The notes under the pieces: model-generated
What the model was told of the DNA's origin: nothing
Database searches by the model: none
The model's input: only the letters and a program-made list of their open reading frames with translations
Made by a program: the position numbers and the translations under genes
Shown here: in pieces, positions 48,228 to 55,196 of the stretch
Position numbering within the stretch: the stretch's first letter is position 1
Layout: every line of letters begins with the position of its first letter
NCBI GenBank assembly: GCA_002717385.1
Contig: PBDR01000022.1
Location: 1-59,417 of the forward strand
Reading direction: 5' to 3'
DNA length: 59,417 nt
DNA from: Chloroflexota bacterium
GTDB lineage: Bacteria; Chloroflexota; Dehalococcoidia; Lucifugimonadales; Lucifugimonadaceae

Positions 48228-48680
48228 TTAGTCTTGAATTAAATCTTCCAATCCAGTCCAACCAAGCAAAGCACATTTAATTCTCACTGGAAATTTTTTA
48301 ACCCCTTCCAACGCTTCAATATCACCCAATGAATCTCTTATTTCTTCAGAAATATCTTCTCCTCTCATCATTTTTCTTACATTGACTATTAATTCGAGTA
48401 TTTGAATTTTCGTTAAATTAATGACACTTTCTGCCAATAAAGATCCGGAACTTTGACTAATTGCACAGCCATTCCCTGAAACACTCAAATCTGTTACCAC
48501 ATCATTTTCTATATTTAGTTGAATAGATAATTCATCTCCACAAAATGGATTGTTAACATCTTTTTCTAAATCAGGACTAGCTAATTTTTTTAGATTTCTG
48601 GGATTACGATAATGATCGAGAATAATACTTTCATACATTTCATTCAAATCATCGACACCTGATAATCTACTCATACTCAT
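48228..48680 (-). CDS. sufU: SufU iron-sulfur/sulfur-transfer protein
   Basis: Zinc-bound sulfur acceptor and activator of SufS, 150 residues. Cys residues sit in NPFCGDE, GNGCAISQ and the C-terminal KCALLGW, with Asp in CGDE as an expected zinc ligand. The start overlaps the sufS stop by 4 bp. It is the last gene of the suf operon; no sufE or sufT is seen. Confidence 0.92.
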   Translation of the reverse strand: MSMSRLSGVDDLNEMYESIILDHYRNPRNLKKLASPDLEKDVNNPFCGDELSIQLNIENDVVTDLSVSGNGCAISQSSGSLLAESVINLTKIQILELIVNVRKMMRGEDISEEIRDSLGDIEALEGVKKFPVRIKCALLGWTGLEDLIQD

Positions 48681-49900
48681 AAAAAATAATCCTCCACATC
48701 TTTAATAGCTTCAAAAAATAAATCTACTTCGTTGAAAGTATTATATATATAGAAACTGACTCTTGCTGCTGCAGAAGTCCCGTAACTACGTACAAGTGGC
48801 ATGGCACAATGATGACCAGTTCTTATTGCAATTCCTTGTTTATCTAAAATAGTCCCAATATCATGTGGATGAATACTTTTATGTACAAAAGAAATTACAC
48901 CTCCTCTAGGATGATTTAAATTATTCCCCAGTACGGTAAAATTTTTGAATTGAGAAAATTTTTCAAGAGCATAATTAGTTAAATCAACTTCATGTTTCCA
49001 TATGTTTTCCATGCCAATATTTAATAAATAATCAACTGCAACTCCAGTAGAAATTCCACCTGCAATATTTGGAGTTCCTGCTTCAAATTTATAAGGTAAT
49101 TCGTTCCATTTCGCACCTTCATAAGAAACTTCAATTATCATATCTCCACCAAACATATATGGTTCCATATTTAGCAATAATTCTTTTTTACCATATAAAA
49201 CACCTATTCCCGTAGGCCCCATCATTTTATGTGCAGAAAAAGCCAAAAAGTCAATACCCAAATCATTAACATCTAACGGCATATGCGGAACAGATTGAGC
49301 AGCATCAACAAGAATTTTAGTATCTAGATTCATTTTTTTGATTAATGAAACAATATCTGAAATGGGTGTTACATATCCTAAAACATTTGATATATGTGTA
49401 ATAGAAACCAAGGCTGTATTTTTATCGAGAATATTTTTCAAATTTGACATTTCAAATCCATTTGAAATGTCAATATATCTTAATTCACATCCAGTTTTCT
49501 TTGAAATTTGTTGCCAAGTTACCAAATTAGAATGGTGTTCAGCATTTGTAATAATAATATTTTGCTCTGCCGAAATATTATTTAATCCCCAAGAAGATGC
49601 TACTAAATTTAAAGATTCTGTAGCATTTCTAGTCCAAATAATACAATCTTCAGGAGCATTTATTAGTTTAGCAACTTTAAATCTTGCATTTTCATAGGCT
49701 TCTGTAGCCTCCATAGAAAGTGTATGAACACCACGGTGAACATTTGAATTATATTTAGTATAGTATTCAGTAATTGAATCAATAACAATTTTAGGTTTTT
49801 GTGAAGTAGCTGCATTATCTAAATATACTAATTTTTTACCATTAACACTTCTTCCCAAAATCGGAAAATCTTTCCTAACTGAATCAATATTTACACTCAT
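48677..49900 (-). CDS. sufS: Cysteine desulfurase SufS
   Basis: PLP-dependent class-V aminotransferase-fold enzyme that removes sulfur from cysteine, 407 residues. The PLP Lys is in FSAHKMMGPTGIGVLYG, and the catalytic Cys in RTGHHCAMPL. It lies 2 bp after sufD. Within it is a perfect 14-bp inverted repeat (49444-49473). Confidence 0.95.
   Translation of the reverse strand: MSVNIDSVRKDFPILGRSVNGKKLVYLDNAATSQKPKIVIDSITEYYTKYNSNVHRGVHTLSMEATEAYENARFKVAKLINAPEDCIIWTRNATESLNLVASSWGLNNISAEQNIIITNAEHHSNLVTWQQISKKTGCELRYIDISNGFEMSNLKNILDKNTALVSITHISNVLGYVTPISDIVSLIKKMNLDTKILVDAAQSVPHMPLDVNDLGIDFLAFSAHKMMGPTGIGVLYGKKELLLNMEPYMFGGDMIIEVSYEGAKWNELPYKFEAGTPNIAGGISTGVAVDYLLNIGMENIWKHEVDLTNYALEKFSQFKNFTVLGNNLNHPRGGVISFVHKSIHPHDIGTILDKQGIAIRTGHHCAMPLVRSYGTSAAARVSFYIYNTFNEVDLFFEAIKDVEDYFL
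49444..49473. repeat. Perfect inverted repeat inside sufS
   Basis: Arms TTGACATTTCAAAT and ATTTGAAATGTCAA are separated by only CC. The 14-bp perfect stem lies within codons for ISNGFEMSN on the minus strand, so it is not regulatory by position. It is the third and shortest of the long coding-region palindromes in the window. Confidence 0.7.
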
Positions 49901-53679: not shown

Positions 53680-53723
53680 CATAAAATATATAAAAAAAAT
53701 TGATCAGATTTTTGGTGATATTT

Positions 53724-55196
53724 TTGAAATACGAATCAGTCATAGGTCTAGAAACTCATGTTCAACTGGACACTAAAACAAAAATGTTCAGCACATCTAG
53801 TAATAATTATCAATCAGCAGAACCTAATACACTAGTAGACCCAGTAACTTTAGCTCTCCCTGGAACATTACCACTAGTAAATAAACGAGCGGTCGAAGAT
53901 GCTATAACCATAGGTTTAGCATTAAACTGTTCTATAAGAGAAATAACAAAGTTCGATCGAAAACAATACACCTATCCAGATTTAATGAAAGGATATCAAA
54001 TATCACAATTCGATCAGCCTATATGTTTTGATGGATATCTTGATTTACCAAACAAAAAAACTTCAAGAATAAGAATCAATCGTGTTCATATGGAAGAGGA
54101 TGTAGCTAAGCTAATTCACGTAGAAGGACCAAGAGGGAACCCTTTACATACTCTTATTGATGTAAATAGATCTGGGGTTCCTCTAATGGAAATTGTAACG
54201 GAACCAGATATGCGCTCCACCGAAGAAGTAGAATTATACATTTCTTCTCTTCAAAAAATCATTAGATATCTTGGAGTAGGAACGGCAAATATGGAAGATG
54301 GTTCATTCCGCTGTGATGCAAATATTAGCGTGAGAATAAAAGGTGTAAAAAGGCTAACCACAAAAGTTGAAATTAAAAACATGAATAGAATCAAAGCTGT
54401 AACAAGAGCTGTGGAATATGAAATAAAAAGACAAATTCGAGAAATTGAATCTGGGGGGAAAATTATTCAAGAAACAAGAGGTTGGAATGATAATAAAGGA
54501 ATAACAGTACCTCAAAGAAGTAAGGAAGAAGCTAATGATTATAGATATTTCCCTGAACCAGATATACCACCACTAAAAATTCAAAAAACTCTAATAAAAA
54601 AAATCAAATCAAATTTGCCAGAACTTCCAATTGAAAAAAAAAGAAGGTTCATTAATGAACTTAATCTTTCAGAATATGATTCTGATTTATTAACTTCATC
54701 AAAAAATATTTCAATATTTTTTGATGAAGTAATTAAACATTCAAATAATAAAAATAAACAATACATAAAAAAGGTTTCTAAAGAAGCAGCTAACTGGATC
54801 AATGGAGAAATTTTTAGATACATCAAAGATACTGGAATTACAGATATATCTGTAATTCCAGTATCTGCAAAAAACTTATCAATTTTGATCACAAAAATTA
54901 TTGATAATGAAATAAATAAAAATTCCGCAAAAAAAATTTTTGAGATAATGTGGCAAAAAAAACAATCTCCAAAAGAAATTATCGAAAAATTAGATTTAGT
55001 AATAGTTAGTGATAGTAAACAATTACTCAATATTGTCGAAGAGGTAATAAAAAACAATCCAAATGCGGTAGAAGACTATAAAAATGGAAAAGACAATGCA
55101 TTAAAATTTCTTATGGGTCAACTAATGAAACTAACAAAAGGTCAAGCAGACCCAAAACAGTCGATAGAATTGATTCGTTCAAAATTAGATGAATGA
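53724..55196 (+). CDS. gatB: Aspartyl/glutamyl-tRNA amidotransferase subunit B
   Basis: Converts Glu-tRNA(Gln)/Asp-tRNA(Asn) to the amide form with GatA and GatC, neither of which is in the window. It is 490 residues. The kinase-like core has VIGLETHVQLDTKTKMF, DVNRSGVPLMEIVTEPD and MEDGSFRCDANISVR. The C-terminal YqeY-like tail ends FLMGQLMKLTKGQADP. I start at the TTG at 53724, with GGTGA five bases upstream; an upstream TTG (53700) lacks support. Two perfect long palindromes lie in the C-terminal half (54693-54730 and 54827-54866). Confidence 0.95.
   Translation: MKYESVIGLETHVQLDTKTKMFSTSSNNYQSAEPNTLVDPVTLALPGTLPLVNKRAVEDAITIGLALNCSIREITKFDRKQYTYPDLMKGYQISQFDQPICFDGYLDLPNKKTSRIRINRVHMEEDVAKLIHVEGPRGNPLHTLIDVNRSGVPLMEIVTEPDMRSTEEVELYISSLQKIIRYLGVGTANMEDGSFRCDANISVRIKGVKRLTTKVEIKNMNRIKAVTRAVEYEIKRQIREIESGGKIIQETRGWNDNKGITVPQRSKEEANDYRYFPEPDIPPLKIQKTLIKKIKSNLPELPIEKKRRFINELNLSEYDSDLLTSSKNISIFFDEVIKHSNNKNKQYIKKVSKEAANWINGEIFRYIKDTGITDISVIPVSAKNLSILITKIIDNEINKNSAKKIFEIMWQKKQSPKEIIEKLDLVIVSDSKQLLNIVEEVIKNNPNAVEDYKNGKDNALKFLMGQLMKLTKGQADPKQSIELIRSKLDE
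54693..54730. repeat. Perfect 18-bp inverted repeat, 2-nt loop, in gatB
   Basis: Arms ACTTCATCAAAAAATATT and AATATTTTTTGATGAAGT enclose a TC loop. It spans codons for the LTSSKNISIFFDEV region of GatB, which aligns with the normal family length, so nothing was inserted. Both strands read a similar peptide here. Confidence 0.85.
54827..54866. repeat. Perfect 40-bp palindrome (20-bp arms) in gatB
   Basis: Left arm AGATACTGGAATTACAGATA is followed directly by its exact reverse complement, with no loop. It encodes the DTGITDISVIPVS stretch of GatB on the plus strand and nearly the same peptide on the other strand. It is 96 bp from the first palindrome. The family alignment shows no clear insertion at this point. 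Confidence 0.9.

Follow-up and report, generated by a model that had tools for sequence, protein, structure and literature searches.

In an uncultured marine bacterium of the Chloroflexota (SAR202-like), the gatB gene carries two long perfect inverted repeats within 174 bp, one of them a loop-less 40-bp palindrome, and we consider it probable that both are quasi-palindromes that were perfected by polymerase template switching and have no separate function. The window, i.e. the whole 59,417-nucleotide stretch of DNA that was analysed, is AT-rich (31% G+C) and derives from a MAG-like assembly (1.38 Mb, 33 contigs, completeness 86%, contamination 3.6%). The closest named entries that it matched in databases belong to Chloroflexota/Dehalococcoidia of the SAR202 kind. 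The features of the window that concern this analysis are as follows.

53700-55196, + strand: gatB, encoding Asp/Glu-tRNA(Asn/Gln) amidotransferase subunit B, intact (open reading frame, Pfam, orthologues).
54827-54866, no strand: perfect loop-less palindrome with 20-bp arms, residues K376-S389 (KDTGITDISVIPVS), absent from all aligned relatives.
54827-54846, + strand: left arm of the palindrome, with outlier residue T378 where relatives mostly have N, D or E (family alignment).
54847-54866, + strand: right arm of the palindrome, with outlier residue V385 where relatives have polar or small residues (family alignment).
54693-54730, no strand: second perfect inverted repeat in gatB, with 18-bp arms and a 2-nt loop, absent from relatives.
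54693-54710, + strand: left arm of the second repeat, coding for TSSKN as in sister species G001 (alignment).
54713-54730, + strand: right arm of the second repeat, with I339 where all relatives have E, D, N, Q or K (alignment).
49444-49473, no strand: third perfect inverted repeat of the window, with 14-bp arms and a 2-nt loop, in a sufS-like gene (48680-49900).

The gatB product matches the Pfam families GatB_N (E = 2.6e-113) and GatB_Yqey (E = 3.6e-42), both far over the cut-off, and orthologues were found in 56 of 60 related genomes. The gene is flanked by suf genes on one side and by cysS, ispDF and clp genes on the other (named by the look of their proteins), and the same order is found in two congeneric species, G001 and G002, whose GatB proteins are 75% and 70% identical, respectively, to that of the window. 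Both repeats in gatB fall in the interval from the end of GatB_N (residue 299) to the early part of GatB_Yqey. A second gatB, approximately 50% identical to that of the window, was also present in the assembly (G000:C31:8392-9834; L033, with the contig start in L143). Its contig, C31, is the compositional outlier among 41 stretches (36% G+C versus about 31%, and the largest tetranucleotide distance) and is probably a contaminant from another lineage; possibly, this second gatB is a paralogue.

The original prediction of a perfect loop-less palindrome within gatB was borne out in full, with AGATACTGGAATTACAGATA followed directly by TATCTGTAATTCCAGTATCT at 54827-54866 (20-bp arms, loop 0), as was its claim that such a length lies far beyond chance. 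At a pairing chance of 0.286, the expected number of loop-less sites with 20-bp arms is approximately 8e-7 for the window; for the genome, allowing loops of up to 8 nt, it is 1.7e-4. The longest stem obtained in 10 third-order Markov simulations of the window was 12 bp. This palindrome is also the longest perfect stem inside a gene across the 842 kb of the genome that were sampled. Its surroundings had been described as conserved GatB sequence with no insertion against the family. The absence of an insertion holds, the alignment being gap-free against either sister species, and the conservation holds in part: the left arm falls within one of the less conserved stretches of gatB. The IPVS encoded in the right arm fits the genus motif [IF]P[IV]S.

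The second gatB repeat, which that prediction did not mention, lies 96 bp upstream of the palindrome and, if mismatches are allowed, extends over 54686-54737 with 25-nt arms at 92%. Within the sampled 842 kb its 18-bp arms tie for the second-longest gene-internal stem with a perfect repeat at L115:2192-2235 (18-bp arms, 8-nt loop, in an ORF of 260 amino acids), for which no close orthologue was found among the sister stretches fetched. An imperfect palindrome (54638-54669; 18-nt arms, 78%) lies just upstream of the other two in gatB. The repeat in the sufS-like gene is missing in both sister species, without an indel. The chance that two repeats with arms of at least 18 bp cluster within 174 bp of gatB under a uniform mutation rate is about 0.002, as calculated post hoc, and the pair, again post hoc, suggests a local hotspot or linked events.

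Alignment of gatB with the sister genes showed both repeats to be lineage-specific and free of indels. The comparison set comprised the two sister species (G001 and G002) and about 30 further gatB genes of the family and order, all species-level relatives, of which the nearest are 70-75% identical in the GatB protein. No perfect stem of at least 10 bp occurs anywhere in gatB in either sister or in the approximately 30 further relatives, and both perfect repeats thus arose in this lineage. Over the two repeats the protein aligns with zero gaps to those of both sisters, and synteny is intact. The 40-mers homologous to the palindrome pair at 7/20 and 8/20 positions in the sisters against 20/20 here, slightly above the mean of 5.8/20 for same-phase 40-mers in this gatB. 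The 38-mers homologous to the second repeat pair at 10/19 and 12/19 positions against 18/19 here, and this site looks already quasi-palindromic in the sisters: when written in AT-rich codons, the conserved TSSKN and FFEEV-type motifs are near-complementary. Among the eight residues of GatB that are most atypical for the family, three (I339, V385 and T378) lie within the 27 repeat codons (hypergeometric P = 0.007, for a placement chosen post hoc). At the same threshold the sisters have 9-10 such residues each; judged from the alignment, the number of atypical residues in this GatB is ordinary and their placement in the repeats unusual.

Correction of a quasi-palindrome by template switching was one of two origins originally put forward, and it is the better supported: the repeats are lineage-specific and indel-free, have outlier residues in their arms and belong to a genome-wide excess of gene-internal stems. 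In this account gatB already contained a short and imperfect inverted repeat; DNA polymerase would have left its template for a few tens of bases, using one arm to copy the other, and then returned, leaving the repeat perfect, and the neighbouring 18-bp repeat would have originated by the same route. The change could have been tolerated because length was unchanged and the altered residues occupy variable positions at and close to where the GatB YqeY domain begins. In the second repeat, copying seems to have gone from the left arm to the right, since the left arm encodes the same TSSKN as G001 and the I339 of the right arm occurs in no aligned relative; the left arm was thus probably the template. 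The 40-bp repeat has one outlier in each arm (T378 left, V385 right), so its template arm is not evident, any direction of copying would be conjectural, and more than one event may have been involved. It also weighs against template switching that the 40-mers of the sisters pair barely above chance, with no strong ancestral quasi-palindrome apparent there, and that two long repeats within 174 bp would be rare under a uniform mutation rate.

Quasipalindrome template-switch mutation, as formulated in the Ripley model and known from thyA and rpsL of E. coli and rII of phage T4, similarly turns an imperfect repeat into a perfect one through clustered substitutions with zero net length change. The gatB repeats differ in being known as an evolutionary product alone, the event being unobserved, and we infer from this product the template-switch step, its date and the number of events. 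In yeast genes, template switching has been found to homogenise repeat arms, a process also described for phage T4 and E. coli (PMC8604942). As in those Saccharomyces cerevisiae cases, arms within a gene appear to have been homogenised here with changes to nearby amino acids, although the yeast cases were polarised on strain phylogenies and the present ones on species-level relatives only (PMC8604942).

Long perfect repeats within genes are more frequent in this genome than composition would predict. The scan covered 842 kb (61% of the genome), of which 766 kb were gene sequence, and allowed loops of 0-8 nt; intergenic long stems, many of them terminator-like, were excluded from the counts. 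Gene-internal perfect stems of at least 12 bp numbered 14 against 1.75 after synonymous codon shuffling (about eightfold, P = 6e-9), and those of at least 14 bp numbered 4 against 0.5, with at most a slight rise over the shuffles at 8-11 bp. A frequency no higher than composition predicts had originally been named as a refuting outcome, and the scan of this 61% did not produce it. The sequences of the 14 stems are mutually unrelated, and 1 of the 14 lies on the possible contaminant contig C31. The sisters G001 and G002 each yielded one gene-internal stem of at least 12 bp, in 223 and 247 kb respectively, while G008 yielded 5 in 148 kb and G017 yielded 2 in 184 kb, compared with the 14 in 766 kb of this genome. 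A high rate specific to this genome was rejected, as it is no clear exception in its family; since other family genomes have long gene-internal stems and the null gives almost none, the process appears general across the family, not peculiar to this species. All four of the longest repeats within genes here, whose arms measure 14-20 bp, are in phase 3; coding phase was set aside as evidence, four out of four being weak since phase 3 is the commonest for short chance stems.

A comparable coding excess in prokaryotes, that of Ladoukakis and Eyre-Walker as cited in PMC4060949, concerns short inverted repeats and has been ascribed to the same mutational process, template switching. That excess, in the terms in which PMC4060949 cites it, is small and involves arms of 6-9 bp, whereas the present one is clear at 12 bp or more and reaches 20 bp. 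The coding palindromes of Nematomorpha mitochondria are likewise perfect inverted repeats in functional genes that occur sporadically across species, but they extend to 284 bp, and phase 3 is avoided among the long ones, in contrast to the four longest here (PMC6649704).

A lineage with an unusually high template-switch rate or tract length, perhaps with weak hairpin processing, in which gatB is a local hotspot, is a doubtful alternative. If it were true, long coding palindromes would arise repeatedly in gatB and reshape the protein. The suggestion of weak hairpin processing stems from the SbcD family model, which gave no match in this genome (G000), G001 or two other AT-rich relatives of the family (G008 and G017). 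Weak matches were obtained in three other family members, none of those tested passing the cut-off, and the missing matches may be due to incompleteness of the genomes or to divergence of the family. The repair genes for the ExoVII large subunit and RecJ are present in this genome.

The second of the origins originally put forward, selection for an RNA or DNA structure, found no support and is improbable. It would act on a hairpin in gatB mRNA (through translation pausing where the domains meet, or mRNA stability or processing) or on a DNA cruciform. The hairpin of the palindrome was indeed predicted to be stable, as had been claimed (-27.1 kcal/mol as RNA; -17.6 kcal/mol as single-stranded DNA); the RNA fold of 54680-54880 is very stable, has a z of -10 relative to dinucleotide-shuffled sequences and contains both hairpins in its minimum-energy structure, and the hairpins lie between GatB_N and the early part of GatB_Yqey as described above. 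This strong fold follows from the perfect repeats themselves, however, and is thus no independent evidence of function. Neither sister forms a comparable hairpin at either site (-1.2/-0.5 and -8.3/-7.1 kcal/mol at the homologous places), nor does any other AT-rich relative, and the other coding repeats of the genome are in unrelated genes and of unrelated sequence. Both gatB repeats pair codon position 3 with 3 and 1 with 2, and the phase that pairs positions 1 with 2 is the most restrictive for the encoded protein (PMC6649704), not what selection for structure should prefer. A conserved functional hairpin was rejected on the absence of the stem from all other aligned gatB genes, and a known RNA family on the absence of any Rfam match in the window at gathering thresholds. 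We infer that the repeats lack a function of their own.

An assembly or amplification artefact might be suspected in a metagenome-assembled genome of 33 contigs and the stated completeness and contamination, yet we regard this as very unlikely. The ORF is open and equals those of the sisters in length, anchors within the arms (TSSKN, DI and P-[IV]-S) match the sisters, and three separate coding repeats in the window follow the same pattern. Fold-back chimeras add or invert sequence, unlike the codon-for-codon replacement seen here.

That point substitutions in an AT-rich gene converged by chance is less credible still. Composition does lift the pairing chance to the value of 0.286 used above, and the TSSKN and FFEEV motifs of GatB predispose it to partial pairing; against this stand the minute expectation for the window and the synonymous shuffling of the sampled genes, which gave no stem longer than 15 bp. 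Shuffles of gatB alone produced a stem of 16-18 bp in 3 of 300 cases; such shuffles retain the amino acids of the present protein, which could themselves be products of the event.

Rickettsia palindromic elements can insert in frame within genes, but an inserted mobile element of that type is hardly conceivable here and was rejected: there is no insertion relative to the sisters, the genome holds a single copy of the palindrome, the other repeats have no sequence relationship to it, and its arm was not found in the viral contigs searched. Such elements, which have been contrasted with coding palindromes (PMC6649704), are also palindromic DNA in genes but arise as repeated insertions, unlike the single-copy, non-inserted palindrome in gatB.

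The gatB repeats show no sign of a new element, a new mechanism or a function; the mutational process to which we attribute them is already known, and what they add is examples of unusual length, with a cluster of two in a single gene. They provide a clean natural example, in a housekeeping gene of a free-living bacterium, of coding inverted repeats far longer than the usual 6-9 bp. If template switching is indeed their origin, it would have altered a conserved protein at several residues while keeping the reading frame, a kind of change that can mimic positive selection.
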